From positions 1 through 64,000 of the forward strand of contig JAJZUC010000008.1 of NCBI GenBank assembly GCA_021847245.1: a DNA stretch of 64,000 nucleotides. The letters are read 5' to 3'. This DNA is from Deltaproteobacteria bacterium (GTDB taxonomy: Bacteria; Desulfobacterota; Desulfuromonadia; Geobacterales; Geobacteraceae). Below, piece after piece: positions 1-53,319 of this stretch (position 1 is its first letter; each line of letters begins with the position of its first letter). Under the pieces are notes generated by a model. The model was not told where the DNA came from and made no database searches. It saw nothing but the letters and a program-made list of their open reading frames with translations. A program made the translations under genes and the position numbers.

Positions 1-101
1 CCCGATAGCTTCATACCCGGCCGTTACCAGCCACGCATGTATCGGTAGGTTACTGTTGATGGGACAACAGGTTTTCTCTTGTTGCCAAGGAAAACAATCA
101 T

Positions 102-7827: not shown

Positions 7828-8322
7828 TCAGGCCGACGCCGGCAGCTCAATGCCCTCTTGTACCGAGATGGCCGAGCCGGTCACGCCGGCACCCTTTTTC
7901 TCCGCACCGGCCTTCTTTCCCGGTTGCGCCTCGTCGGCATCCTGGTCGTTTTTGGCCAGCGGGTCGTCAAACCCGCGGGGCGGAATGTATCTGTCTCCAA
8001 GCAGCCTACTTATTTGCGCATTGAGGAGATTGATGTCTCCCTTGATTTTGTCGGACTTCTCAATGATCTCCGCCACTACGGCGAAACTGAGTTTCCTGCT
8101 CCTTCCTGCCTGCAATCTCAGCTTGTGGAGCATGATGTCGTGGGAGTTGAGAAGACCGATGAAATCGAACTGGTCGTAGGTCCGCCGGCTGATGAACGCC
8201 AGGTCGCTACGTTCCGACTTCTTGTGCCGCTCTTCGCGCCATTCCTCAGGGGTAGGGCGGGGTTTCCTCTGTTCCTTTTCGCCGCTTTCGTGTTTCTCTT
8301 GCCCTTTGGTAGACTTGCTCAT
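7828..8322 (-). CDS. Hypothetical charged protein near traH
   Basis: A 164-aa protein with strongly charged, probably disordered ends and a central helical part (residues ~40-110) with heptad-like spacing. No membrane segment. The start has AAGGAG about 9 nt upstream. It lies 22 bp after traH, so it is probably co-transcribed with transfer genes. Family not recognised. Confidence 0.55.
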   Translation of the reverse strand: MSKSTKGQEKHESGEKEQRKPRPTPEEWREERHKKSERSDLAFISRRTYDQFDFIGLLNSHDIMLHKLRLQAGRSRKLSFAVVAEIIEKSDKIKGDINLLNAQISRLLGDRYIPPRGFDDPLAKNDQDADEAQPGKKAGAEKKGAGVTGSAISVQEGIELPASA

Positions 8323-8344: not shown

Positions 8345-9832
8345 TTAGGATTTCCCCAGTGCCCGCCGGGCTACACCCGTCCCGAAGCGCCCCGAGAGTT
8401 CCGCGAATACCGTATCGTCGAATCGTTTCATGTTGAGGACGAGCATTTCCACCGAGTTCACCTCGGTTGCCGCGTTGGCGTAGCTTTGGTGGGCTTCCTG
8501 CAGTAGATGCAGGGTTTTCTCCTCGAGGGTCTGGAGATGCTGGAGCCCTTCACCCAGCAGGGCGATCTGGCATGTCTCGGGGGAGGCTCCCGCCTTGCTC
8601 GTCTGTTGGCTCGACATGATGTTCTTGGCGCTTTCGCTGAGCTGCACCGCCCGGTTGAAGAGGTCGAGGAGCATGTAATAACCGAAGGCCCTGGCGGTGA
8701 CCTCCGAGAGCTTGCCGATGACCTCTCCCTCGGTGTTGGTGGCCGTCGCGTTCTTCAGGATCAGGCCGACCGAGAGGGGGGTGCTCTTCAGGAACGTCTC
8801 TTCGTCGGCGGAAAGAGGCTGCCTTGCCTTGAGCTTGCCGGCGATGGCCTGCATCTGGCCGTTCACGTAGGTCAACAGGTTCTTGTTGGCGTCTGTGATG
8901 TCAGCGCACGCCCCGCCACTGGCCCTCCGTTGAGCAGTGCCGTCGATGAAGGAGCTGAAGCTCTCATTCTTGTCGCAGGGGGGGATGTACTGGGCACGGT
9001 AGGTAGTCCCCGAAGTGGCCGGACTCTGGACCACGACGTCGCCGATGAAGCCCCTGATGAGCTGCACGTAATCGCTGCTCATCCCCCTCTTCGCAGCCAG
9101 GTTCTCCAGGACCGACCCGTCACCGAAAACGGTCCTCACCTCGTCGGGACAGCCCGCCGTGGCGCTGGCTGCCGAAGTCTGGATGGTGCCGGGAGCCATG
9201 GGCTTTGTTCCGCTGGCGGACTTGAGCTCGCTATCGAACAGCTTGCTCACGTCATGGGCCAGGTCTTTCGCCCCGCTGGAAACCAGGAAATCGGTCTGGG
9301 CCGACTTCATCTCCGCCTTCAGGCTGTCGGACATGATGGAGGAGAATGGGCTCGAAGCCGTCGCCACCAGGGCCTTGGCCGCCTTGCAGTCGTTGAGTTG
9401 GAGCGAGTTCAGCCGGTCGGTGATCGCCTCCAGCGTCTTGATGGTGTCCGCCACCTGGGGAGCCAGGGTCTTCAGGGCAATGTCGAAGGCAGCCGCAGGC
9501 GCCGCGGAAAGGATGTTCTGCAGCTTCTGGACGAGATAATCGACGTTCATGAAGGAGAATCCCCCCAGGAAGGCATCGATGCCGCCGCACCCCGACTTGA
9601 GCTGCGGGAGCGACGCGGTGACCAGGTAATCGTTGGAATTGGCCCAGCGGGCAGAGAATCCGCCGCCTGTGTAGTAGCCACGTTTCGCCCCCTCGTAGTA
9701 GCTGGGGGAAGTGCTGCTCTTCTGCTTTATCCAGTCGTCCACCCAGCCCGATCCTGGCGCGGGGCCGGGGAAGGCGGCGAGAGACACGGCCACTGCCGCC
9801 GCGATCAGCTTGGTTCCCTTGCGACGCATCAT
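8345..9832 (-). CDS. traH: TraH-like conjugative pilus assembly protein
   Basis: A 495-aa protein matching the TraH family of F-type type IV secretion. It has an N-terminal signal peptide, then a SGCGGID segment and the FxGxFSFMN...LQ region typical of TraH, with several periplasmic cysteines. TraH acts with TraF and others in outer-membrane pilus assembly. I choose the second ATG of an ATGATG pair (9832), which has AAAGGGG upstream. The F-type genes seen here (traH, traF, traD-like) are only part of a full set; traC, traG, traU, traW and traN are absent from the window. Confidence 0.82.
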   Translation of the reverse strand: MMRRKGTKLIAAAVAVSLAAFPGPAPGSGWVDDWIKQKSSTSPSYYEGAKRGYYTGGGFSARWANSNDYLVTASLPQLKSGCGGIDAFLGGFSFMNVDYLVQKLQNILSAAPAAAFDIALKTLAPQVADTIKTLEAITDRLNSLQLNDCKAAKALVATASSPFSSIMSDSLKAEMKSAQTDFLVSSGAKDLAHDVSKLFDSELKSASGTKPMAPGTIQTSAASATAGCPDEVRTVFGDGSVLENLAAKRGMSSDYVQLIRGFIGDVVVQSPATSGTTYRAQYIPPCDKNESFSSFIDGTAQRRASGGACADITDANKNLLTYVNGQMQAIAGKLKARQPLSADEETFLKSTPLSVGLILKNATATNTEGEVIGKLSEVTARAFGYYMLLDLFNRAVQLSESAKNIMSSQQTSKAGASPETCQIALLGEGLQHLQTLEEKTLHLLQEAHQSYANAATEVNSVEMLVLNMKRFDDTVFAELSGRFGTGVARRALGKS

Positions 9833-9869
9833 GGGTTCAGCCCCTTTCATCCGGTTGTTGAAATGTACA

Positions 9870-10790
9870 TCATGTGACCAGTGCTCCGTGCCGAGTTGTC
9901 AAACCGGCCGGGTTTCCCCTCTTGTAAGGTTGGGTGATCTGGAAATTCAGGTTACCCATTGAAAAGGCCTCGACGCCTCGCAGATATTTGGCGATGTCGA
10001 TCTCTACACCTTTTTCCAATCGCCGTTTATGGGCACTCACCCAGTGAAGGATGGGTCGCCTTCGTCCCGATGCGGTCATGGGCAAGCTTCGGGCGTAAAA
10101 GAGGCTCTGAATCATAGGTTCTTCGATCCCGAAGTGCACCTTTGCATGACCTCTGCTATCCGACAGTTGGAACGGCTCTTCTGTTGTCACCATCCATAAA
10201 TATTTCGTGTCAGCCAGCAAAGAGAGGGCACCAGGGCCATAGTGCGAGCCGGCATATCGGTCGATTCTGAATGCGGCAATCTTGCCGTCCCTAAATTTCG
10301 CAGTGTCAATTGTCAGCCAGACGTCACCATGTGCATCGATGGCGAAGTAGGTGATTTCGATGATAGGGCAAAGCTTGCCGGCCTTCGGCATTTCAACCAC
10401 ATACACCTTGTATATGTAAGCGGGATCCTTGCATTGGCAGACGACCCCTTTCTTGAACCTTCTGACCCGTTTAACGGCGGCATACGAAAACTCCATTCCC
10501 TCACTTGGTTTCACATAAACGCAACCGGACTCCGGCAATTCATCGACATCGAGATCGAACGTGCCCCAGTAGTAATTTCTCTTCGATCCCGGAATATAGA
10601 CACCCTCAGTCAGAGCTTGGAAATGCTCCATATCCTTTCTACCGCAGCCGCCGAATTGCATTGCCTCGACTTTTTCGCCGGGTTTCGGCACCCAGTCGAG
10701 TATTGCCAGCAAACCGGAATAAGCCTTGTCTACCAGTTCTTCGGAATCCAGTATCGACACGCTCTCGCCAATGTAAGGTTTCGCTTTCAA
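9870..10790 (-). CDS. Hypothetical protein between traF and traH
   Basis: A 306-aa soluble protein without a domain I can name. A basic stretch (SGRRRPILHWVSAHKRR) followed by a short conserved-looking VDIAKYLRG-type segment resembles uncharacterised phage and plasmid proteins. A TTG start is taken because AGGAGG stands 6 nt upstream and no ATG fits better. Lower GC content than the flanking tra genes suggests it is a later insertion between traF and traH. Confidence 0.5.
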   Translation of the reverse strand: MKAKPYIGESVSILDSEELVDKAYSGLLAILDWVPKPGEKVEAMQFGGCGRKDMEHFQALTEGVYIPGSKRNYYWGTFDLDVDELPESGCVYVKPSEGMEFSYAAVKRVRRFKKGVVCQCKDPAYIYKVYVVEMPKAGKLCPIIEITYFAIDAHGDVWLTIDTAKFRDGKIAAFRIDRYAGSHYGPGALSLLADTKYLWMVTTEEPFQLSDSRGHAKVHFGIEEPMIQSLFYARSLPMTASGRRRPILHWVSAHKRRLEKGVEIDIAKYLRGVEAFSMGNLNFQITQPYKRGNPAGLTTRHGALVT

Positions 10791-10855: not shown

Positions 10856-11692
10856 CTACTTTTCGTTGGGCGCGGGAGGACGCTTCTTCACGTCGAAACC
10901 TCCTCCCCGCTGGAAATCATAGAGGGAGAATTCCTCCGGTGTGATCTCCCCCTTGAGGAGCCTCACGGCCCGGTAGGTCCTGTCCTCGATCTCGTCGGCG
11001 GAGATCACCCCGGACGACACCGGGAAATAATCCTGGTTCCCCTTCTGGATCAGGACGAGAGTGGGGGTGATCTCCACATGGAATCTCGCGGCGAGTCCCG
11101 GGTTCTCCTGGGTGTTCACCCTCTTCACCACCCACCCGGTCGAGTTGGTGAACCACTCCAGGATCGGCGCCTGCTCTTCGCAGAAGCTGCAGTCCTGCCG
11201 GAAGAAATAGATGAGCGCGAAGTCGTCCCGGTTTTCGCGCAGCTTCCGGCTCTTTTCCTCCCTGATCCGGGATATGCGGCCCAGATTGCCGGGGGTCGTG
11301 ATCGGATAGTCCTTCTTGGTGGACAGTTCCGGGTATTTCTGCCAGACGTACTGGGAGACGTTAGTGAAGGCGAGGGCCTTCTTCCTGGCGATCTCCTGGA
11401 CCTCGTAGTAGTCCCTGACGTTCTCCTCCGACGGGTTCCGCACAGCCTCCTTCTTCAAGCCCTCGGCGAGCTTCTCGAAGTTGTCGGGATGCATGTCCCA
11501 AATCTGCTCGTAGGTATAGGCCCTGAGCCTTGTGGGCCCGGGGCCGGCGTCACGGTTCTTCTCCTTCTCCTCTGCCGCCTTGGGAGGTTCTTTCTCGTAC
11601 CACCACCATCCCTTGCCCGCCTCCGAGTAGTAATCGGCGCTGGCGGTAGCGGCGAAGACGAGGAGCAGGCCGGCGACGATCAGGTTACGCAT
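10856..11692 (-). CDS. traF: TraF-like thioredoxin-fold conjugation protein
   Basis: A 278-aa protein with a signal peptide (cut near ASA-DYY), a helical middle and a C-terminal thioredoxin fold. The redox-type motif CSFC stands at the usual active-site position, so it may be a working disulfide oxidoreductase, unlike F-plasmid TraF which lacks the pair. A cis-proline segment (EITPTLV) supports the fold. In F-type systems TraF works with TraH in pilus assembly. Its ATG overlaps the end of the HD-protein gene by 13 nt, so the ORF-track start upstream is rejected. Confidence 0.83.
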   Translation of the reverse strand: MRNLIVAGLLLVFAATASADYYSEAGKGWWWYEKEPPKAAEEKEKNRDAGPGPTRLRAYTYEQIWDMHPDNFEKLAEGLKKEAVRNPSEENVRDYYEVQEIARKKALAFTNVSQYVWQKYPELSTKKDYPITTPGNLGRISRIREEKSRKLRENRDDFALIYFFRQDCSFCEEQAPILEWFTNSTGWVVKRVNTQENPGLAARFHVEITPTLVLIQKGNQDYFPVSSGVISADEIEDRTYRAVRLLKGEITPEEFSLYDFQRGGGFDVKKRPPAPNEK

Positions 11693-13131
11693 GTGGCGCC
11701 CTCCCTGATCTTCAGCTTGATGTCCGCGACCATCTGTCTCAGCGCCTGTGGTTTCTCGTTCTCCAGGGTCGAAGGGAGTGTGCCGAAGGCCTCGGCCCGG
11801 AACGGTATCAGCAGGACCGAATACCCTTTGCCTCCTTTGGTGACGACGGTTGTCTGTGTCATGTAGTGGCCGCGGCCCATCAGGTCGGTGGCGATGGCGT
11901 TCTTGACCCTGCTCAGTTCCCATACGACGGTGTGGAGCAGGTTCCGTTTCATCTCCTCGTTCGCGTCCGCCAGTTTCACCAGCGGGTCGTGTCCTCCGAT
12001 CCGGTGAATCACCCGCCACAGCGCGTCCTGATTGGCGAAGACCAGGCCGTTTGGCATGGAGACGATATGCCAGCGGCTGCCGGTGGGCGTCTCCTCCAGT
12101 CGATTTACCATCTCTCCGAGAAGTGACAGCACGGTGTCCACGTCGAACCAGGAGGGAAGTTCCAGCGTCGTTGGCGTGAATTTCCCCTCCACCGGAGAGC
12201 CGAGCGGGTGGTCCGTCTTCGGCCTATCCGCATCGGCCGTCACCTGTTCGGCCGGCATCAAGGGAACCCCGACATTTCCGAACGTCGCCAGCTCTTCCGC
12301 CCGCGCGTCATGGTCGCACCGCTTCAACTGCACGGTGAGTTCGTCAGGGGGGGTGATCGCGTGGTGGTTGCCGATGGCGGCGTCCAGCTCCTGCCTGTTG
12401 GGAAGGGAGGCGTACTCTGGTATGCCGCCGAGAACTATCTTGGAAATGACCGGGTGATCCGCGGTGGAGTAATACTTTTTGTGGAAAGACGGAATCTTGC
12501 CAATGTCGTGACCGAGCGCGATGATCAGGCAGTCGGCCAGCATCGCCCCCTTGCCGGCGGTCGCGGCGAATTTACGGGCTACCGCCAGGCTGTGCCTGTA
12601 AAGGGGTATCGTGGCGAGCAGGGAATACGCCTCGGCCCCATACTGGGCATCCGTTTCCGTCACCTTTCCCCCACCGCCCGCGTGTCCCTTGCCGACGACG
12701 GAAGGACAGGTCCCTTCCGCGTCGAGCAGTTTGAGGATCTCAACGATCACCGTCCGGCGGGCCCCTTTCACGAGCCGCTGATTCTCGACCATCGTCCGGT
12801 AGAACCCGGCTATCTCCTCTATGGCGAAGGCAGGGGGCGGTGTGGTCGCCTCGTCCGTGGCGGAAGGAGGCTTGCGCCAGAGCTTTGCCACTTCCGTGAA
12901 CTCGATGACGTCGCCCACCAGCGCGTTGTTCTCGTCCGAGGGGGTTTCGTCTTCTTCGGTCCAGATATGGCTTATCTCCTTGAGGGTGAGTGTCTCCATT
13001 TCGCCGTCCCCCTCTTCGCGGCGTTCCTTCTCCTCGGCGGTCCTTTCGGGTCGAAGGCCGATGAACAGCCTGATCGAGAACAGGATCAAGCCGACCCCGA
13101 TCAATCCGGCGATTAAGGCCAGGGTTTTCAT
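11680..13131 (-). CDS. Membrane-anchored HD-domain conjugation protein
   Basis: A 483-aa protein. One N-terminal membrane span (residues ~4-25) is followed by a charged linker and an HD-type metal site (LYRHSLAVA, then ALGHDIGKI, later GNHHAI). This order is like the N-terminal domain of MobH/TraI_2-type relaxases and of HD hydrolases. A second conserved part (residues ~330-480) is of unknown fold. It sits between the coupling ATPase (ATGA overlap) and traF. A relaxase or a transfer-associated phosphohydrolase are both possible; I cannot see a relaxase catalytic tyrosine. Confidence 0.6.
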   Translation of the reverse strand: MKTLALIAGLIGVGLILFSIRLFIGLRPERTAEEKERREEGDGEMETLTLKEISHIWTEEDETPSDENNALVGDVIEFTEVAKLWRKPPSATDEATTPPPAFAIEEIAGFYRTMVENQRLVKGARRTVIVEILKLLDAEGTCPSVVGKGHAGGGGKVTETDAQYGAEAYSLLATIPLYRHSLAVARKFAATAGKGAMLADCLIIALGHDIGKIPSFHKKYYSTADHPVISKIVLGGIPEYASLPNRQELDAAIGNHHAITPPDELTVQLKRCDHDARAEELATFGNVGVPLMPAEQVTADADRPKTDHPLGSPVEGKFTPTTLELPSWFDVDTVLSLLGEMVNRLEETPTGSRWHIVSMPNGLVFANQDALWRVIHRIGGHDPLVKLADANEEMKRNLLHTVVWELSRVKNAIATDLMGRGHYMTQTTVVTKGGKGYSVLLIPFRAEAFGTLPSTLENEKPQALRQMVADIKLKIREGATCVT

Positions 13132-14501
13132 TTCGAGCTCTCCCTCTGCGCCGACGGCACGTTCAGCGGGGCGGCGGGAAAGTTGATCTTCACCGATGGG
13201 GCTTTCACCATGAGGGTGGTCCCCCTGTATCTCCCCGAATAGGTAAGCATGTAGAACTCCTGCGGCTGCAGGCCGAGAATGTCCTGGACCTTGAGGATGT
13301 CCTGTTCCACTTCGCGGGTCGTGACCTGGTTCGAGCCGAAAATCCCGGTGAGCACGTTTCTCACCCCGAAATGCCGCACCACGTACTCGGAGGTCTCGGC
13401 GTCAGAGCAGCGCATGAATATCTTGGTGTTGGTGTTGTCGAGGATCGACTTCCCGTACTCCTCCCCCACGGCGGCGTATATCTGGTTCACGGACTGGGCG
13501 AAGGCATGCACCATCACATCGGCCGCTCCCGCCTTGGCGAACAGTTCCTCCACGCCCTGGTAGATCAGGCTCTGCGCCTCGTCGATGTAGATCGACAACG
13601 GAGGGGAGACCTTCTGCCTGTTGGAGAGATAGACCCTGCCGACGAATGACTGGATCATGGAGAGGAGTACCTTGCCGAGAGTGGCGGCTGCCTCGCGGGT
13701 GATCAGGGAGCCGGTATGGACGACCAGGATGACCGGCTTTCCCTCCTCCAGCCGGTCGATGAAGCGGTTGCTGTCGGCCTGGCCGATGATTTTGCCGATA
13801 TTGCCGGAGGAAAGCTCCATGAGGCAGGTGCGAAGCGACGAAGAGACCTTCGAGTAGTACTCCTGGGGCGAGTCGAGGATGTCCCTGAACATCCCAGCGA
13901 TCAGGTCCGCCTCCGACATCTCCAGCCGCCGCAGATGGTTCATGGTGTATTCCAGGGAGCTACGGCGGATGCTGTTGCGGATCGTGTCCATGTTCAGGAC
14001 GAGCTTGTGCCCTTCCTCTTTGGCGAGGATGATGTTGCCGGTGATGACGGCGGTGGTGATCTCCTTGGCGATGTTGCGGTAGAACGGCTCCCGCCCTCCC
14101 TGGATGCCCGAGATGATGTGGCCTACCAGCTCGTCGACCATGAAATAGAAGGCCATGGGATCGACCACCGCCGAATACTCGGGGAAAATCGGCGTCACCA
14201 GCATCAGGTCCTTCAGCCGGCCGGACTCCCGGGCCACCTCGAATATCTTGGTGAATATCTGCTGGTCCCCCTTGGGGTCGAAGTAGACCACGCTGTTCCC
14301 CTTGCGGATGTCCTGCTCGATCAGGTTCTCGCAGAGCCGGGTCTTCCCCACGCCGGTGGTTCCGAACACGAACATGTGCCGCCTCCGGAAGGAGTCCGGG
14401 ATCGAGATGGGGACGATCCGTGTCGGCTGCTCCATCCGGACGCCGGTGCCGATGTCGGTGGACGGCTCGTCACCCCTCGCTTTTTTCAGCCACGAAAACA
14501 T
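13128..14501 (-). CDS. TraD/VirD4-type coupling ATPase
   Basis: A 457-aa AAA+ ATPase of the type IV coupling protein/TraM-AAD-binding family. Walker A GTTGVGKT at ~residue 49, Walker B LSIYIDEAQ, and the downstream AQSVNQI and DNTNTKI segments are typical. It is shorter than F TraD and lacks the usual two N-terminal membrane spans, so it may be docked by the membrane-anchored HD protein downstream, whose start overlaps its stop codon. It would hand the DNA-relaxase complex to the secretion channel. Confidence 0.83.
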   Translation of the reverse strand: MFSWLKKARGDEPSTDIGTGVRMEQPTRIVPISIPDSFRRRHMFVFGTTGVGKTRLCENLIEQDIRKGNSVVYFDPKGDQQIFTKIFEVARESGRLKDLMLVTPIFPEYSAVVDPMAFYFMVDELVGHIISGIQGGREPFYRNIAKEITTAVITGNIILAKEEGHKLVLNMDTIRNSIRRSSLEYTMNHLRRLEMSEADLIAGMFRDILDSPQEYYSKVSSSLRTCLMELSSGNIGKIIGQADSNRFIDRLEEGKPVILVVHTGSLITREAAATLGKVLLSMIQSFVGRVYLSNRQKVSPPLSIYIDEAQSLIYQGVEELFAKAGAADVMVHAFAQSVNQIYAAVGEEYGKSILDNTNTKIFMRCSDAETSEYVVRHFGVRNVLTGIFGSNQVTTREVEQDILKVQDILGLQPQEFYMLTYSGRYRGTTLMVKAPSVKINFPAAPLNVPSAQRESSK

Positions 14502-15192
14502 ACAGGTGTTCTCCCAGTTCCTTTCCGACGGTGTTGATGGCGCTCTTGGGAAGACGGACCGGCGTCGCGAGCCTGCTGAACCCTCCGGCGACCCGCCTCT
14601 GGCAAACGATGCCGTCCACTCCCGTGACTTTCTTCAGGAGCAGTTCCGGCAGTTGCGGCGACGTTCGGCTCAGTTGGATGCGGACGCGCGCCGAGTGCCT
14701 GCCGGCCTGGACGGCGTGGACCCGCGTAACGTGAAAAGCCCGCGTGTCGCCGACCCGGTAAAGCCCACGTTCATGCCCGGGCTGGTAAAGTAGCGGGCAT
14801 TCCCCGCTCAGGATCAGGCGCCGGAAGATTTCGTCAATCTCCAGCACGACACGCAACGTCCCACCGGCCTCGATCCTCCCGACGGTGCCGTATATGACCT
14901 GGCCCCGCAGTTCCTGAAGGATCTCCGCCTCGCGCAGGGCCTGCCTCCTTTGCAGTTCCAGTTCGACATTGTGGAGAATGTGGCGCCGGAGTTTCCTCGT
15001 TATGGCATGCAGCGGAACCTCGACCGGCTTTCCGATGCGCGGATAGGCGACGATCTCCAGTCCGTTCTCCGCCCTGACCGAGACGGTTGTGTCGAGGGCA
15101 GCGGACAGGGTTCTGGTTATGGCAAGCTCCACGGCATCGAGCACCTGGTCTTCCGGCAGCCCGTACTTCTGCAGAAGGTCAGCGGTCAGCAC
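14470..15192 (-). CDS. NusA-like S1-domain protein in a conjugation operon
   Basis: About 240 aa, unusual in this setting. Residues ~1-90 follow the NusA N-terminal pattern (GLPEDQVLDAVELAI). Then comes an S1-type beta-barrel (VIYGTVGRIEAG, YRVGDTRAFHVTRVHA) and the NusA-like strand IQLSRTSPQLPELLL ... GIVCQRRVAG. The end retains only the last piece of a KH1-like domain (INTVGKELGEHLYVF). KH2 and acidic repeats are missing. The GTG at 15192 overlaps the upstream stop; an ATG at 15219 is the alternative. Possibly an element-specific transcription factor; this is inferred from pattern similarity alone. Confidence 0.6.
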   Translation of the reverse strand: MLTADLLQKYGLPEDQVLDAVELAITRTLSAALDTTVSVRAENGLEIVAYPRIGKPVEVPLHAITRKLRRHILHNVELELQRRQALREAEILQELRGQVIYGTVGRIEAGGTLRVVLEIDEIFRRLILSGECPLLYQPGHERGLYRVGDTRAFHVTRVHAVQAGRHSARVRIQLSRTSPQLPELLLKKVTGVDGIVCQRRVAGGFSRLATPVRLPKSAINTVGKELGEHLYVFVAEKSEG

Positions 15193-15685
15193 GGCCGAAC
15201 ACCGCCTGCCAGGGTGCATCTTGCGCTACGACCTCGGCCGAGGCCACCTGTCTGATCGGCCGGGTCCCGGCGTGTTCCGACAGAATCCGGAACACCCTTG
15301 CCGCGTAGCGGTCGCGTTTCGACGGGGTGCGGGAGTTGTAGCAGCCGACCGCCTGCCAGGTGTACCCGTAGTCAGAGACGCACTGGGCGAGAATCCATGC
15401 ACCCGCCTTCACGTTCGTGCAGGGATCGCCTAGACCGCTCCAGGTCTTTCCGAGCCGTCCGGCCCAGGAGGAGTTGATCTGCATGAGCCCGAAGTCGTAA
15501 GTGCCGTTGCGGTTCCAGTTCACGGCTCCCGGATCGAAGTTGCTCTCCACTTTGGCGATGCTCCAGAGAAGTTGCGGCGAGACGCCGTAAAGCTCTCCCG
15601 CCTCCTGGAAGCAGAAGGCATGGGCGCTTACTGCGTTTACCGCAAGGCAGAGCATCACCAGGATGAATACCGCCAGTCGGATCAT
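15179..15685 (-). CDS. Conjugation-type lytic transglycosylase
   Basis: A 168-aa protein with a signal peptide (cut near AHA-FC) and an SLT/lysozyme-like fold. The catalytic glutamate sits in IAKVESNFDP, and the GLMQINSSW and VGCYNS motifs of the VirB1/TrbN/IagB group follow. It opens the peptidoglycan for the secretion channel. First gene of the overlapping minus-strand run to traF; its ATG has TTAGGAG upstream. The gene diverges from lexA, with a 113-bp shared control region. Confidence 0.88.
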   Translation of the reverse strand: MIRLAVFILVMLCLAVNAVSAHAFCFQEAGELYGVSPQLLWSIAKVESNFDPGAVNWNRNGTYDFGLMQINSSWAGRLGKTWSGLGDPCTNVKAGAWILAQCVSDYGYTWQAVGCYNSRTPSKRDRYAARVFRILSEHAGTRPIRQVASAEVVAQDAPWQAVFGRADR

Positions 15686-15730
15686 GTTCGTTTTCTCCTA
15701 ACCCTATATCTAGCGGGGGGACAGCTCTCG

Positions 15731-15798: not shown

Positions 15799-16401
15799 GT
15801 GACCGACCTCACGGCACGGCAGCAGAAGGTACTGGACTTCATCGCCCGGTTCATCCAGACGAACGGCTACTCGCCGACTCTGCGGGACATTGCTGGCCAC
15901 CTTAACGTCAGCAGCACGTTCGGCGTGAACCGCCACCTCGACGCCCTGGAGAAGAAGGGTTTCATCAGGAGGTCCGGAACGGCGCGGGGGATAGTGCTGG
16001 CCGCGCAGGGGGCGAAATCGGTCCCGCTGCCGATCGTCGGCACCGTCCGCGCGGGTCAGCTCCACCCCGCCATCGAGGACATCCAGGGGTACTTCGCCGT
16101 CGATCAGGGACAGGTAAAGGGTGAGGGGTGCTTTCTTCTGAGGGTGAAAGGGGACTCGATGATCGGGGCGGGGATTTTCGACGGGGACCTCGCCCTGGTC
16201 CGTCCGCAGCCCGTCGCGGAAAACAGGGACACGGTGGTCGTCATGGTCGAGGGAGAGGCCACGCTCAAGTGGTTCTACCGGGAGCGCGACCGCATTCGTC
16301 TCCAGCCGGCCAATCCCAATATGGAGCCGATCATGGTGGGCCCCGACAAGGACGTATCGATTGTCGGCAAGGTCATCGGCATCTACCGGCAGTTGGAGTA
16401 G
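15799..16401 (+). CDS. lexA: LexA-type SOS repressor
   Basis: A 200-aa repressor. The winged helix (residues 1-65) has the LexA pattern SPTLRDIAGHLNVSS. The self-cleavage site RAG lies in GTVRAGQ; catalytic serine is in VKGDSM and lysine in EATLKWF. The GTG start follows GGAGGGG. It heads a plus-strand cassette with a small gene and dinB, so it most likely represses these and itself until DNA damage. Its promoter palindromes differ from the E. coli SOS box. It is probably an element-borne paralogue of a chromosomal LexA. Confidence 0.92.
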   Translation: MTDLTARQQKVLDFIARFIQTNGYSPTLRDIAGHLNVSSTFGVNRHLDALEKKGFIRRSGTARGIVLAAQGAKSVPLPIVGTVRAGQLHPAIEDIQGYFAVDQGQVKGEGCFLLRVKGDSMIGAGIFDGDLALVRPQPVAENRDTVVVMVEGEATLKWFYRERDRIRLQPANPNMEPIMVGPDKDVSIVGKVIGIYRQLE

Positions 16402-16404
16402 GAA

Positions 16405-16650
16405 TTGGAACGGATCAGGGAACAGATACGGATCGCCACCATCTTCACGCCGGGACGCCAGATCAAGCCGGTCTGGTTCGACTGGCACAACAGGAAGCAC
16501 TCGATCCTCCGGACAACCTACTTCTGGAGGGAGAAGGTGGGCGATGCTCTTCTTCTGCACTTTTCGGTGACGGACGGGGAGGCGCTCTACGAGCTGGTCT
16601 ACAACACGAAAGACCAGAGTTGGCTGCTGAACGGCATGGAGGTGAAGTGA
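16405..16650 (+). CDS. Small protein between lexA and dinB
   Basis: An 81-aa protein with an aromatic, beta-rich pattern (PVWFDWHNRKHSI, LLHFSVTDGEALYELVY). It has no cysteine or membrane segment. A TTG start lies 3 bp after lexA, and its TGA overlaps the ATG of dinB (TGATG), so it is tightly coupled with the polymerase. The family is not one I can name with certainty. Its fixed place in the SOS cassette suggests a polymerase-accessory or DNA-binding role, inferred from context. Confidence 0.6.
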   Translation: MERIREQIRIATIFTPGRQIKPVWFDWHNRKHSILRTTYFWREKVGDALLLHFSVTDGEALYELVYNTKDQSWLLNGMEVK

Positions 16651-17882
16651 TGACCGGCCGCGTGATCATGCATCTCGACATCAACAGCTTTTTCGCCTCC
16701 GTCGAACAGGCCGCCAATCCGGAACTGCAGGGCAAGCCCGTTGTCGTCACGGGTTCGCAGCAGCGCACGGTAATCCTGACCGCCAGCTACGAGGCCCGCA
16801 AGTACGGCGTCAAGACCGGCATGATGCTCCACGAGGCCCGTAGGCTGTGCCCGGACGTGATCATGGTGCCGGCCGACAACCGCAAGTACACCCACACCTC
16901 CGCCGAGATCATGAGGATGATGCTGGACTACACCCCTCTCGTTGAGGTGTTCAGCATCGACGAGGCGTTCATGGATCTGACCAATTCCCTGTCGATCTTC
17001 GGAAGCGCCGAAAATGTCGCCTACCTTCTCAAATCCCGGATCAGGCATCGCTTCGACATCACCTGCTCCGTCGGCATCGCACCAAACAAGCTCCTGGCAA
17101 AGCTGGCCTCGGAGATGAAGAAGCCGGACGGCCTGACGACGATCACCCCCGGTGACGTAAGCCGGGTGCTGGAAAACATGCCCATCAAGGAGCTCTGCGG
17201 CATCGGCAGGAAGATGGAGCGACACCTGAACCTCCTGGGGATCAATACCTGCGGTCAGCTGGGAAGATTCCCGGTGGACATCCTGAAGCGGAAGTTCGGC
17301 GTCGTTGGAGAGAGGCTCCACTACATGGGGCTCGGTGTCGACGAATCGCCGGTTGTCCCGGCGGAGGATGCCGACGAGGTGAAATCGGTCGGGCACTCCA
17401 TGACGTTGAGAGAAGACATTACCACCAGGGCCGACATCCTTCGTTTCTTGCTGCAGCTGTCGGAGATGGTCGGGCGGAGGGCGAGGCGCTACGGGGTTGC
17501 CGGCAAGACGATTCACCTCTCGATTCGCTATGCGGACTTCACCACCTTCGGAAAGCAGGAGACCCTCTCCCGTCCCGTGAACCAGAGTGAGGATATCTAC
17601 CGGGGAGCCATCCAGATCCTGGACTCCATCGAACTGGAACAGCCTGTTCGCCTGCTCGGGGTGCGGCTGACGAACCTCTCCTACCGGCAGGATCAGCTGC
17701 CCTTGTTCGAGGAGGAGCGGAGAAAGGCGTTCATGGTACATGCCATGGATAATGTAAACGACCGGTTTGGCGACTTCACGGTGACGTTCGGCAGCTTGCT
17801 AGCAGGTGAGGAAAAGAAAGGCTCGTTCGTTATCTCTCCGGCCTGGCGGCCGGACGGAATCAGGAACGTTACTGTACGCTGA
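16650..17882 (+). CDS. dinB: Y-family DNA polymerase IV
   Basis: A 410-aa error-prone polymerase. The palm has HLDINSFFASVE and the catalytic FSIDEAFMDL; CSVGIAPNKLLAKLAS is typical of DinB. A helix-hairpin-helix thumb (ELCGIGRKM) and little-finger domain follow, and the clamp-binding motif QLPLF lies at ~residue 350. The ATG at 16650 is inside the much longer frame reported by the ORF track; the upstream part of that frame is a lexA shadow. It copies past damage during SOS and could raise mutation rates in the host after transfer. Confidence 0.92.
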   Translation: MTGRVIMHLDINSFFASVEQAANPELQGKPVVVTGSQQRTVILTASYEARKYGVKTGMMLHEARRLCPDVIMVPADNRKYTHTSAEIMRMMLDYTPLVEVFSIDEAFMDLTNSLSIFGSAENVAYLLKSRIRHRFDITCSVGIAPNKLLAKLASEMKKPDGLTTITPGDVSRVLENMPIKELCGIGRKMERHLNLLGINTCGQLGRFPVDILKRKFGVVGERLHYMGLGVDESPVVPAEDADEVKSVGHSMTLREDITTRADILRFLLQLSEMVGRRARRYGVAGKTIHLSIRYADFTTFGKQETLSRPVNQSEDIYRGAIQILDSIELEQPVRLLGVRLTNLSYRQDQLPLFEEERRKAFMVHAMDNVNDRFGDFTVTFGSLLAGEEKKGSFVISPAWRPDGIRNVTVR

Positions 17883-17895
17883 TTTCTCAACGTTG

Positions 17896-17955
17896 TTGAC
17901 TTGTGTTCAATATTTTGGTATGTTCAAAACAAATGAACAAAGAAAATATTGAACA
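17896..17955 (+). promoter_or_regulatory. AbiE promoter with nested inverted repeats
   Basis: TTGACT (17896) and TATGTT (17919) stand 17 bp apart. Four hexamers are nested: TGTTCA-N11-TGTTCA-N7-TGAACA-N10-TGAACA (17904-17955), reaching into the first codons. This is a likely autoregulatory operator for the antitoxin. The same array recurs at 36575 and partly at 60844. Confidence 0.7.
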
Positions 17956-18988
17956 TAATCGGGCAGCGGAAAACGAAGCCGACATCCTTCGGCAGGCGAT
18001 GGAAGCGTTGAAGACGCTCGCTCCCCTGGAATACAAGGCGGAGCCGGTACGCGGCCTTCGTGACGAGGGATACGACTACATTGTTCGGGCAAGGGTTTTC
18101 GGGAAGGAGTTCGTTTGGTGCGTCGAGGTCAAGAACCGGCTTACCAAGGCGGCGGAACTCCAGGCTCTGATCAACAAGGATAAGACGCAGCACCCATTCC
18201 TGCTGGCGACAGGGTACGTCACCCCCGAGGCCGCGACAAGACTGCACGATGGCGGCATCCAGTTCATCGATACGGTTGGAAATGCCTTTGTCAATCAGCC
18301 GCCCCTGTTGATCTTCGTGAAAGGCAACCGGCCGGAAAAGGAAGAAACCGCAGTTCCCGCCGCCCGTCTCTTCAAAGGGGTCGGACTGAAGATCGCCTAC
18401 CTCCTTTTGTGCCGACCGGAACTCGTCGACAGGCCGTATCGCGATCTCGCCGAAATGACGGATGTCGCCTTGGGGACGGTGAACGGCACCATGACCGAAC
18501 TGGTCCAGAAAGGCTTCATCCTCGACATGGGCAAAAAGGGGAAGAAGCTCCTGGACAGGAAGACGCTCTTCGAGCGCTGGATCGCGGCGTATCCCGACTA
18601 TCTCAAGCCGAAACTTTTGCTGGGGCGCTTCCGGGGTGATGGCGACTGGTGGAAGGATATCCAGCTGGACCCCGCCCTCGCCCAGTGGGGGGGAGAGGTT
18701 GCCGCGGCGAAAATGACCGGATACTTGAAGCCGGGTACGGTCACGCTATATGCGGACAAGAACCGTCTGGCCGATCTGGTGATCGCCAACAGGCTGAAAA
18801 AGGACCCGCAGGGCAACGTGGAGATTCTCGAACGGTTCTGGCCGCCGGGAAATGGCTTCGGTGAAGGCGATACCGTGCATCCGATCCTCGTCTATGCCGA
18901 CCTGGCCGCGATAGGCGAACAACGAACAATGGAAACCGCAAGGATGATCTATGAACAATATCTCGATCGATATTTCGGGCAGGATTGA
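17933..18988 (+). CDS. AbiEi-family antitoxin/regulator
   Basis: A 351-aa protein of the type IV antitoxin AbiEi family (long COG4861 type). The N-terminal ~130 residues hold a restriction-like fold (GYDYIVRARV, WCVEVKNR) and the middle a winged helix (RDLAEMTDVALGTVNGTMTELVQKGF) suited to DNA binding. It would repress its own promoter and neutralise the nucleotidyltransferase encoded next. ATG at 17933 is preferred to the ORF-track start because the latter has no ribosome site. The 3' end overlaps the toxin gene by 38 nt. Confidence 0.75.
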   Translation: MNKENIEHNRAAENEADILRQAMEALKTLAPLEYKAEPVRGLRDEGYDYIVRARVFGKEFVWCVEVKNRLTKAAELQALINKDKTQHPFLLATGYVTPEAATRLHDGGIQFIDTVGNAFVNQPPLLIFVKGNRPEKEETAVPAARLFKGVGLKIAYLLLCRPELVDRPYRDLAEMTDVALGTVNGTMTELVQKGFILDMGKKGKKLLDRKTLFERWIAAYPDYLKPKLLLGRFRGDGDWWKDIQLDPALAQWGGEVAAAKMTGYLKPGTVTLYADKNRLADLVIANRLKKDPQGNVEILERFWPPGNGFGEGDTVHPILVYADLAAIGEQRTMETARMIYEQYLDRYFGQD

Positions 18989-19826
18989 CGCCGGGAGGAT
19001 ATTGGTTCTCAGAAGCATCAAGGAAATCGCCGAGGAGCTCGGCATACATTTCTTCGTGGTGGGGGCTTTCGCCCGCGACGTGATATTCGAGCACATCCAC
19101 CGGATTCCCGCTCCCCGAGTGACGGAAGACATCGATATCGGTGTCGAGGTCGCAAGCTGGGAGGAATTCCAGCGTCTGACCGGCGCCCTGATCGACCGCG
19201 GACTTCTCACCGCGACGAAATCCTCTCACCGCTTCATTGCCAGCTCATTTGCTGCCGTGGTCGATATCGTACCCTATGGAGGGATAAGTGGCGAGGCGAA
19301 ACGGATCAGCTGGCCACCTGACCACGACATGATCATGAGCATGCTCGGGTTTGAAGAAGCATATCAATCGGCTTTGAAGGTGCGCCTCAGCAGCGATCCG
19401 CCCCTGGAGATCCTTGTTCCTTCGGTGCCGGCTCTGGCGCTTCTGAAGATCATCTCCTGGGCCGACGCATACCCGAGACGCGAGCGCGATGCCCACGATC
19501 TTCTCTTCATCCTGGAAAACTACGACGCGACCGGCGTTGAGGCGAAACTGTACGAGTCCCATGTACCCCTGCTCACCGAGGAAGAATTCGATTCCCGGCT
19601 CGCTTCCGTTCGGCTGCTCGGGCGGGACATCGCGCAGTTGGGCAGCCCGGAGACGCTAGAGACGGTAGAGGAGATCCTGATCCGCGAAACCGACGAAGAC
19701 CAGGGATTCAGGATGCTCTCCAATATGGTCAAGGGTGCCTCGTTCCAAGGGACCAAGTTCGAGGCCGCTCTGCAACTTCTGAAAAAGCTTTTGCAGGGAA
19801 TTCAAGAGGAAAAGCCAGGGGAGTGA
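18951..19826 (+). CDS. AbiEii-type nucleotidyltransferase toxin
   Basis: A 291-aa protein with a DNA polymerase beta-like nucleotidyltransferase fold: VVGAFARDVIF, then TEDIDIGVEV carrying the metal-binding aspartates, and a later FAAVVDIVPYGG. Family toxins block growth by adding nucleotides to tRNA or other RNA and can abort phage infection. It overlaps the antitoxin gene by 38 nt. The pair sits inside an SOS/repair cluster and may stabilise the element. Confidence 0.75.
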   Translation: MNNISIDISGRIDAGRILVLRSIKEIAEELGIHFFVVGAFARDVIFEHIHRIPAPRVTEDIDIGVEVASWEEFQRLTGALIDRGLLTATKSSHRFIASSFAAVVDIVPYGGISGEAKRISWPPDHDMIMSMLGFEEAYQSALKVRLSSDPPLEILVPSVPALALLKIISWADAYPRRERDAHDLLFILENYDATGVEAKLYESHVPLLTEEEFDSRLASVRLLGRDIAQLGSPETLETVEEILIRETDEDQGFRMLSNMVKGASFQGTKFEAALQLLKKLLQGIQEEKPGE

Positions 19827-19832
19827 GCGGCC

Positions 19833-20501
19833 GTGTGCGGTAGGTTCACAATCATACTGCCGCCGGAGGTGCTGGCTGAAATCTTCGGCCTTTCCGAGTT
19901 ACCCCGGATCGAAGCACGTTACAACATCGCTCCGACGCAGGAAGTAGTCGTAATTCGACAGAATGCCGAAGGTGCGCGGCAGTTGGTGACGATGAAATGG
20001 GGATTGCTTCCTGCGTGGGCAAAGGACCCCCATATCGGCAACAAGTTGATCAACGCCCGATGCGAGACGGTTCACGAAAAGCCGGCATTTCGTCAGGCGA
20101 TCCGTACCCGCCGATGCATTATACCGGCCAGCGGATTCTATGACTGGACACACACTGACAAGAAGATACCTTTCTACGTGAGCATGGCCGACGGATCGCC
20201 GATGGCTTTCGCTGGGATATGGGATTCATGGAAAGCACCAGACGGATCACGGATTGAATCCTTCGCGATTCTCACCACCAATGCCAACAGCTTGATAGCC
20301 CCCATCCATGACAGGATGCCGGTCATCCTGCATCCTGCAGAATTCGATCTCTGGCTCGACCGCGACATCACCGAGCCCGAAAAGCTAACGCGCCTCTACC
20401 ATCCGTACCCTTCGGACCTTCTGAAGGCTTGGCCGGTCTCGTCGCTCGTCAATTCCCCCCGCAACGAAACGCCTGCCTGCATTGAGCAGACTGTTTCATG
20501 A
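19833..20501 (+). CDS. SRAP (YedK/HMCES) abasic-site shield protein
   Basis: A 222-aa SRAP-domain protein. The GTG start puts the catalytic cysteine at position 2 (MCGRFT), which crosslinks to abasic sites in single-stranded DNA. NARCETV and [13 protein letters not shown] are family motifs. It begins 6 bp after the toxin gene, and its TGA overlaps the recD2 start (ATGA), so repair genes are coupled. It fits an SOS-linked operon protecting single-stranded DNA during transfer. Confidence 0.93.
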
Positions 20502-22678
20502 AGACAGCAATCTCTACCGATACTCCCGTTGAACGGCTTGCCGGCTCTGTGGAACGGGTGACCTTCCACAGCGAGGAATCGGGCTTCTGCGTCCTGCGAG
20601 CCAAGGTCAAGGGACACAGGGATCTGGTTACCGTCGTTGGCTCCGCGGCATCTATCACCGCCGGTGAGTTCATCGAGGGTATTGGCGCCTGGCACAACGA
20701 CAGGACTCATGGTCTGCAATTCAAGGCCAGACAGCTGAAGGTTGTCCCTCCCAGCACCGTTGAGGGGATAGAGAAGTATCTCGGTTCCGGAATGGTCAAA
20801 GGCATTGGGCCACATTTTGCCAAGGTTCTGGTGAAAGCCTTCGGGGAAAATGTCTTTACCGTCATCGAGAACGATCCGGAAAAGATGCTTTTACTCCCCG
20901 GCATCGGCAAGAAAAGAGTGGAGAAGATAACTTCTGCCTGGGCCGAACAGAAGGTCATCCGTGAGATCATGGTGTTTCTCCAGTCGCATGGAGTAGGCAC
21001 TGCCCGGGCTGTCCGCATTTACAAAACTTACGGCGACGGAGCTATCATCAAGGTCACCGAGAATCCCTACCGTCTGGCCTTGGACATCCACGGCATCGGT
21101 TTCAAGACCGCGGACGTCATTGCCGGCCGGCTTGGAATTGCCCCGGACTCTCTGATTCGTGCCCAAGCCGGCGTCCGCCATGTCTTGCAGGAAATCTCCA
21201 ACGACGGTCACTGCGCCGCCCCGGTGGAGACTCTGATTGCGGAGTCGGGCAAATTGCTGCAAATCCCAGACGCGATCCTGGAAGAGGCCATCCGCGAAGA
21301 GATCGCCTCGGAGAACTTGGTCAAGGAGGAGATCGAAGGGCGCGAGTGTCTGTTTCTGGCCCCTCTGCACCGTGCTGAGGTCGGGGTGGCGGCGAGCATC
21401 AAGAGAATCCTGGAGGGGCATCCTCCATGGGATGCGATCGACGCGGACAAGGCCATTCCCTGGGTGGAGGGAAAAACCGGCCTGACGCTATCAGCTTCTC
21501 AGGGAGAGGCGGTGAGACTCGCCTTGTCCAGCAAGGTGGTGGTCATTACCGGTGGCCCGGGTGTCGGTAAGACAACGTTGGTCAACAGCATCCTCCAGAT
21601 CGTCCGAGCGAAACAGGTTAACGTCACACTCTGCGCACCCACGGGGCGGGCCGCGAAACGACTTTCCGAATCCACCGGCCTTGAGGCCAAGACCATTCAC
21701 AGGCTGCTCGAGTTCGATCCAAAGTCCTTCGGATTCAAGCGAGGGCGGGACAACCCCCTCGAAACCGACCTGCTGGTAGTGGACGAATCCTCGATGGTGG
21801 ACATCGCCTTGATGAACCGACTGCTGGCCGCTGTTCCCGACAAGGCAGCCCTGATGATAGTCGGCGATGTGGACCAACTCCCCTCTGTAGGGCCAGGAGC
21901 GGTGCTTTCCGACATCATCGATTCCGGCAAAGTTCCAACTGTTCGGCTGACGGAAATTTTCCGGCAGGCGGCGACCTCCCGGATCATTGTCAGCGCTCAC
22001 CGCATCAATAAAGGTGAGATGCCTCTGAAGGCAGAAGGGACTGAACTGTCTGATTTCTATTTCATACCGGCAAACACTCCAGAAGAAATCCACGAGAAAC
22101 TGCTGCAGGTGGTCACGGAACGCATTCCCAAGCGATTTGGCATGCACCCGGTCAAAGATATACAGGTACTCACTCCGATGAACCGTGGGGGCATCGGTGC
22201 CCGGTCTCTAAATGCGGAATTGCAGATGAAGCTGAACGAAAAGGGTGAGCCGAAAATCACTCGCTTCGGGACAACTTTCGCCCCCGGCGACAAGGTGATC
22301 CAGACTGTCAACAACTACGACAAGGAGGTCTTCAACGGCGATATCGGTCAGATCATGGGGATCGACCAGGAGGAAGGCTCTCTGCAGGTTCACTATGACG
22401 GCAGAACTGTCGAGTATGAATTCGGAGAGTTAGATGAGGTATCTCTTGCCTATGCGACGAGCATTCACAAGAGCCAAGGCTCCGAGTACCCCGCTGTCGT
22501 GATCCCCTTGGCAATGCAGCATTATGCCCTTTTGGAGCGAAACCTGATCTACACGGCCGTGACGCGAGGGAAGAAGCTAGTGATCATTATTGGCCAACCT
22601 AAAGCCTTGGTAATGGCTGTGAAAAATCGGAAGTCAACGAGAAGAATGACGAAACTGGCAGTTCGGCTTGTAGAATAA
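20498..22678 (+). CDS. recD2: RecD2-type helicase (ExoV alpha-like)
   Basis: A 726-aa SF1B helicase. The N-terminal ~300 residues contain OB-like and helix-hairpin-helix parts ([21 protein letters not shown]). The helicase core has Walker [11 protein letters not shown], Walker [11 protein letters not shown] and the SH3-containing motif end ([13 protein letters not shown]). Length and layout match RecD2, the RecBC-independent form. It unwinds 5'-3' and works in repair. The gene ends 19 bp before the first comM fragment, so it marks the right edge of module 1. Confidence 0.92.
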
Positions 22679-37087: not shown

Positions 37088-37120
37088 GCTTACGTTATTC
37101 CTCGTTAGCATGAGGCGTTT

Positions 37121-37232
37121 GCACAAACACAGGCTACTGCCCGGAAACGTCGAAAGACGCCAATGGGTAGACCAGGTCTTGCCGGATTAAGGCTTGACTT
37201 AAGGTAGCTGGTCCTATGGGCCTACGTTGTGC
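37121..37232 (+). ncRNA. Structured RNA, three-way junction, class unknown
   Basis: GCACAA pairs with TTGTGC, closing about 112 nt (AGGC/GCCT continues the stem). Inside are two arms: CTGCCC/GGGTAG capped by CGTC-GAAA-GACG, and GACCAG/CTGGTC containing GTC-TT-GCC/GGC-TT-GAC. A GAAA tetraloop and a GGTAGC segment on the other arm could dock, as in c-di-GMP-I aptamers, but the conserved core of that class is not present. With a strong promoter and terminator it resembles a riboswitch or a small RNA. Confidence 0.5.
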
Positions 37233-37279
37233 ATTGCTGAAAATCTACGAGAGGGGAATCACGGCACGCTATCCATCAT

Positions 37280-44428: not shown

Positions 44429-44444
44429 TTGCCACATGAGCTAC

Positions 44445-44522
44445 GGCGATGGAGTTCGCCCTTAACCGCTTCTCTACCGAAGCTGATAACTCCTACCTTA
44501 CAAAACGAGGTAGGAGTTTTTT
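44445..44522 (+). ncRNA. Fluoride riboswitch (crcB motif) 1
   Basis: GGCGATGGAGTTCGCC followed by TAACCGCT and GCTGATAACTCCTACC is the crcB-motif aptamer. AACTCCTACCT then pairs with AGGTAGGAGTT and a T-run, giving a terminator that competes with the aptamer pseudoknot. Fluoride binding should allow read-through into the CPA2 antiporter gene. Confidence 0.95.
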
Positions 44523-50357: not shown

Positions 50358-50377
50358 TTGCCAAAATAAAATCGAAC

Positions 50378-50457
50378 GGCGATGGAGTTCGCCATAAGCG
50401 CTTCCCCAAAGCTGATGACTCCTACCTTTATTATCAGGGTAGGAGTTTTTTGTTTTT
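50378..50457 (+). ncRNA. Fluoride riboswitch (crcB motif) 2
   Basis: GGCGATGGAGTTCGCC, TAAGCGCT and GCTGATGACTCCTACC match the aptamer. CTCCTACC pairs with GGTAGGAG and a TTTTTTGTTTTT tail as terminator. It should control the ClC gene, but 350 bp separate them. Confidence 0.95.
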
Positions 50458-53221: not shown

Positions 53222-53238
53222 TGTCAATAAACCGCTCC

Positions 53239-53319
53239 GGCGATGGAGTTCGCCATTAACCGCTTCGACCTGAAGCTGATGACTCCTACCTTTCATGTGC
53301 GAAGGTAGGAGTTTTTTTT
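53239..53319 (+). ncRNA. Fluoride riboswitch (crcB motif) 3
   Basis: GGCGATGGAGTTCGCC, TTAACCGCT and GCTGATGACTCCTACC match the aptamer. CTCCTACCTT pairs with AAGGTAGGAG and eight T. It controls the HAD-CrcB-DUF190-enolase operon. Confidence 0.96.

Follow-up and report, generated by a model that had tools for sequence, protein, structure and literature searches.

The general elongation factor NusG has many specialised paralogues, each serving single operons. Antiterminators of the Q type (i.e. lambda Q and AlpA) bind to a DNA element that lies within the promoter or close to it, and work together with NusA. Among the NusG paralogues (ActX, RfaH, LoaP, TaA and UpxY), ActX is found in plasmid pilus operons, where its function is unknown (PMC7819879), and LoaP antiterminates by antagonising NusA (PMC12691694). 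The antitermination genes of conjugation operons usually lie at the operon start, as in the pLS20-type plasmids where the conAn system comprises the ConAn1 protein and the conAn2 RNA (PMC8955417). No NusA paralogue of conjugative elements, nor one devoted to a single operon, is described in the open-access literature that we searched.

The gene studied here lies in a window of 64,000 nucleotides (i.e. the whole stretch of DNA that was analysed) from a bacterium of the Geobacteraceae. It encodes a NusA-like protein, NusAL, within a conjugation operon on the minus strand that runs in the order transglycosylase, NusAL, TraD, HD protein, TraF, a 306-aa protein and TraH (Table 1). The frame comprises 240 codons from a GTG at 15192 to a stop at 14470, and overlaps its two neighbors, the preceding transglycosylase gene and the following coupling ATPase gene; its limits, neighbors and overlaps are as the original prediction gave them. 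The longest mechanical open reading frame begins at an in-frame ATG (15219) nine codons upstream of the GTG, while the relatives of NusAL begin where the GTG lies, and often have ATG there. Comparison with a 95% identical copy in Geomesophilobacter sediminis gave dN = 0.031 and dS = 0.112 (NG86), and the gene is therefore under purifying selection. The host's ordinary nusA is on another contig (431 bits).

Table 1. Coordinates of NusAL, its domains, the operon genes and the operon-start motif within the window.
Feature	Position	Strand	Basis or remark
NusAL (NusA-like protein), 240 aa, GTG start	14470-15192	-	profile homology, PDB profile matches, Foldseek
NusAL residues 14-40: helix and strand matching NusA NTD alpha2/beta1	15073-15153	-	profile alignment
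NusAL residues 95-175: S1 domain, with NusA-like stretch CPLLYQPGHERGLYRVGD	14668-14910	-	profile alignment
NusAL residues 178-235: KH1 remnant (SRTSPQLPELLL, IVCQRRVAGGF, PKSAINTVGKELGEHL) without GXXG loop	14488-14661	-	alignment
Operon-start motif, here AGCTGTCCCCCCGCTAGATATAGGG	15702-15726	-	just upstream of transglycosylase start codon
Lytic transglycosylase, first gene of operon	15179-15685	-	Pfam SLT, E 6e-22
TraD/VirD4-type coupling ATPase	13128-14501	-	TIGR03743, E 2.5e-47; PF12696
HD-domain protein of transfer operon	11680-13131	-	PF01966
TraF	10856-11662	-	PF13728, E 2e-66
306-aa operon protein between TraF and TraH	9870-10790	-	no family match (Pfam, NCBIfam)
TraH	8345-9850	-	PF06122, E 5e-95
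Operon protein after TraH, conserved there in relatives	7828-8322	-	locus comparison

The single sequence of NusAL gave no match in Pfam, and none by phmmer against the PDB. It scored 14.2 bits (E = 0.016) with the NCBIfam model of NusA, for which the curated cut-off is 253.4 bits. Unrelated S1 proteins (ribosomal S1-type) score as high with this model, so that the match proves nothing alone. Searches with the single sequence were thus either empty or within the noise of S1 proteins, and profile methods were required.

Relatives of NusAL were gathered from genomes of the phylum and the class, and from plasmids, giving a profile of 38 members that was compared with one made from the chromosomal NusA proteins of the same phylum. 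The two aligned with a score of 53.8 (P = 7.6e-7), and the alignment is collinear from residue 1 through the N-terminal domain (NTD) and S1 to the start of KH1. By comparison, the highest of 60 column shuffles scored 21.7, the reversed profile 15.1, the neighboring operon families at most 21.6 and S1 repeats 25.7. The S1 and KH1 section taken alone still matched NusA (P = 8e-6), and the NTD alone did so weakly (P = 0.006). A search of the PDB by hmmsearch with the family profile returned seven NusA chains at E of about 0.01, with the next match at E of at least 1.3; these matches fall in residues 8-42, i.e. they start in the NTD. Ten of 27 members individually match the NusA model TIGR01953, the best with E = 4.2e-5. 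Prediction by AlphaFold from the single sequence gave a mean pLDDT of 48 and was confident in part of the NTD only; the S1-KH1 section predicted with two alignment rows had a mean pLDDT of 32, and was given no weight. Using the low-confidence NusAL model in Foldseek, PDB matches 1-11 were all NusA (best E = 2.4e-5), at low TM-scores of about 0.3. These lines of evidence overlap but agree, and NusAL almost certainly descends from NusA.

The NTD of E. coli NusA comprises a globular head as well as a body (PMC4642336). The body is present in NusAL, aligning from residue 1, while the head (alpha3, beta3 and beta4) is absent, leaving a gap of ~25 residues in the alignment. The NusA proteins of M. 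tuberculosis and P. limnophilus are likewise headless (PMC4642336). In the E. coli protein L27, L31, I43 and V45 are affected by the binding of RNA polymerase (PMC4642336). These align with V21, I25, V37 and V39 of NusAL, in columns that are hydrophobic in about 35-38 of the 38 members, although the conserved positions could also serve the protein core. The NTD is followed by the S1 domain, and then by a KH1 domain of which the family keeps the first strands together with the last helix and strand. The intervening DPVGACVGxxG segment is missing, and the sequence VGACVGxxGSR that is found in NusA is absent from the family. The only G-x-x-G near the end of NusAL is GVDG, which lies ahead of the KH1 strand and outside the position of the loop. 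There is no KH2, the protein stopping after the KH1 remnant. NusAL thus resembles NusA (TIGR01953) in the collinear NTD body, S1 barrel and KH1 start and in its hydrophobic polymerase contact positions; it differs in length (240 aa compared with about 400-500), in lacking the head, the KH GXXG and KH2, in falling far below the curated score, and in being the gene of a mobile element beside a chromosomal nusA. The original prediction of NusA likeness through the NTD and S1 is upheld by the profile comparison and by Foldseek, and the matches are not confined to unrelated S1 proteins. Its description of KH1, of which only the end was thought to remain, was nearly right, the first strands being kept too.

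NusAL was found in 37 of 277 Desulfuromonadia genomes, and in nine genomes of a 395-genome sample of the phylum. There are three copies in the present genome, in three elements. A plasmid collection was searched with three proteins, and the only matches were pSD and pPRO1; both are typed MPF_F, and on both NusAL is annotated as 'hypothetical protein', the family having no match in Pfam. No relatives were found in viral contigs and phages. The gene order transglycosylase-NusAL-TraD-HD-TraF-TraH, which the original prediction had suggested seeking in other elements, recurs in most of those compared, including pSD and pPRO1. Among 41 scorable loci the transglycosylase gene is upstream of NusAL in 35, and TraD is directly downstream in 40, the exception being an interrupted copy. 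NusAL is the first or second gene in nearly all the operons inspected, and in the distant members inspected it opens a NusAL-TraD-HD operon or lies close to its beginning. Judged from its distribution and gene order, NusAL is conserved as a component of conjugative elements of the MPF-F type. Around one distant relative (locus L092, 9342-10079 on the minus strand, genome G603) neither TraD nor transfer genes could be detected in the 19 kb examined, and other mobile elements may thus be served by the family too.

The operon starts of NusAL-bearing elements share a sequence motif, with the 22-bp consensus ACCTKCCCCCC-N5-GATWAT. In 38 non-redundant copies its edges are sharp, the information starting abruptly at ACCT, and neither the -35 region nor the sequence upstream is conserved. 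Whole elements were scanned, and several of their operon starts proved to carry a copy. In pSD a variant form occurs at 13926, 22961, 33766 and 51843, and one of these copies immediately precedes an OmpA-like gene that opens the TraL...TraU (T4SS) operon; in other elements the motif lies before an OmpA-like gene, an actin-like gene or an AlpA-like gene. When the class was searched for the pattern, 38 of 277 genomes contained it, and NusAL is present in 24 of these 38 (Fisher p = 7e-16); the pattern reversed, as a control, was rarely matched. We note that the co-occurrence is expected, because the motif and NusAL are linked on the same elements, and that it is no evidence of NusAL reading the motif. 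Since GATWAT resembles a -10 box we prefer to regard the motif as a shared promoter, possibly an unusual one without a -35 box. Folding had hinted at a conserved RNA hairpin. However, any G-run downstream can pair with the C-tract, and folding was no weaker when halves were swapped between copies (permutation p = 0.64); the hairpin was rejected, and no structured RNA partner was found at the motif.

The NTD of NusA binds the tip helix of the beta flap of RNA polymerase, and a helix of its head contacts the alpha CTD (PMC7171158). We propose that NusAL is a reduced NusA paralogue acting as an element-specific elongation or antitermination factor that docks on RNA polymerase at the site of NusA, a reading to which we give an even chance. 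Without the head and the KH GXXG loop NusAL would be deprived of some of the ability of the host NusA to promote pausing and termination; it should still reach the beta flap, but promote pausing less. NusAL would then replace or compete with NusA on the polymerases transcribing the transfer operons, which as a result would pause and terminate less. Among the NusG paralogues its counterparts would be LoaP and ActX. These two, the precedents for antitermination from operon starts, and the absence of head and GXXG lead us to favor an elongation or antitermination role, and the keeping of the same place in dozens of elements makes a private elongation factor for the DNA transfer genes possible. 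The binding to polymerase, and with it a mechanism acting on elongation, we hold a little more tentatively than the proposal as a whole.

The evidence for an elongation role includes the hydrophobic polymerase-contact columns, the promoter-proximal position of NusAL, and the common motif that marks several operon starts including that of the T4SS. Against it, the number of predicted intrinsic terminators in the operon does not exceed chance (17 terminator-like sites on both strands compared with 15.8 expected), so the idea of a terminator-rich operon is unsupported; there is no covarying hairpin at the motif; and the adjacency to TraD is tighter than a position at the operon start requires. 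The original prediction of a factor for reading through tra genes therefore stands insofar as a NusA-type protein is fixed in a conjugation operon of recurrent order, while the read-through itself gains nothing from the terminators or from RNA covariation. A broader proposal is that NusAL and the operon-start motif together form a dedicated transcription system, in which NusAL, by occupying the beta flap, would confer on the transfer, T4SS and partition operons of the element a processivity or promoter selection of their own. We consider this somewhat unlikely.

The strict adjacency of NusAL and TraD allows a role other than read-through. In the main rival reading the NusA scaffold has been recruited as a nucleic acid-binding adaptor that works with the TraD-type ATPase and the HD protein in loading DNA, with no action on RNA polymerase. 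The frames of NusAL and TraD often overlap, NusAL, TraD and the HD gene remain linked in distant members whose transglycosylase is undetected, and the TraD of this operon has no obvious N-terminal membrane segment, all of which would suit an accessory of the coupling protein. Yet NusAL retains the positions that match the sites where NusA contacts polymerase, the distant member at L092 is without detectable TraD in the 19 kb examined, and NusAL diverges much faster than TraD within the same elements (e.g. 55% compared with 82% identity). We consider this reading rather unlikely. RNA binding is common among S1 proteins, and NusAL could use its S1 domain to bind tra mRNA and control translation or stability. 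Such post-transcriptional regulation would leave the retained NTD and the collinear domain order unexplained, and with no conserved RNA structure at the operon-start motif it appears distinctly improbable.

A role in initiation has also been considered. The NTD of NusA and region 4 of sigma compete for the flap tip (PMC7171158), and by occupying this site NusAL could redirect polymerase to the C-tract promoters of the element. The sharp edges of the motif, with a -10-like box and nothing conserved at -35 or upstream, would fit such a role, as would the 24 genomes common to motif and NusAL. But that overlap is what linkage predicts, the motif is itself only a putative promoter and an ordinary activator could read it, so that we regard redirected initiation as very improbable. 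A generic S1/OB-fold protein owing its NusA likeness to the S1 domain alone might be suspected from the failure of Pfam to find either NusA or an S1 domain and from a single-sequence score that other S1 proteins also reach, but it is scarcely compatible with a match that spans NTD, S1 and KH1 in order, that scores about twice as high as S1 repeats, and that begins in the NTD in the PDB.

Returning to the proposed elongation or antitermination factor, its relation to known systems can be stated. Like the NusG paralogues, NusAL is a paralogue of a general elongation factor; those are of the NusG family whereas NusAL is of the NusA family, and no NGN domain or NusG family was found among its Pfam and NCBIfam matches. 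It shares with conAn the encoding of a factor by the element at the start of a conjugation operon, but no structured RNA element corresponding to conAn2 was found. As with the Q-type antiterminators a sequence motif lies at several operon starts of one element, but no Q-like protein was identified. Specialised paralogues of general elongation factors are thus known as a kind; what is new here is one built on NusA. If the proposal is correct this would be the first operon-specific factor based on NusA and not on NusG. The presence of a conserved, reduced NusA on conjugative elements would mean that mobile DNA has domesticated not only NusG but also the other universal elongation factor of bacteria. 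NusAL would be a natural minimal NusA with which to test the domains responsible for pausing and termination, and might offer a way to study the escape of conjugation genes from Rho- and NusA-dependent silencing.

Some further features were noted. The HD protein was considered as a possible MobH relaxase; TraI_2 does not match it, even when searched against the whole genome. The 306-aa protein has a 99% identical copy in the same place in locus L005, and is undetected at that place in other elements. Divergent from the transfer operon is an SOS-like cassette (15799-22678, plus strand), whose genes were judged from their translations to be LexA-like, a small protein, a DinB-like polymerase, YedK/HMCES-like and RecD2-like. 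LexA-type genes also flank the operon in some relatives, which suggests that transfer may be under SOS control. A partial group II intron catalytic RNA lies at the edge of the window (1-71, minus strand). There is an M-box magnesium riboswitch at 37094-37262 (plus strand), and there are three fluoride riboswitches within 9 kb (44436-44502, 50369-50431 and 53230-53295, plus strand), the last of which is near CrcB-like and enolase genes.
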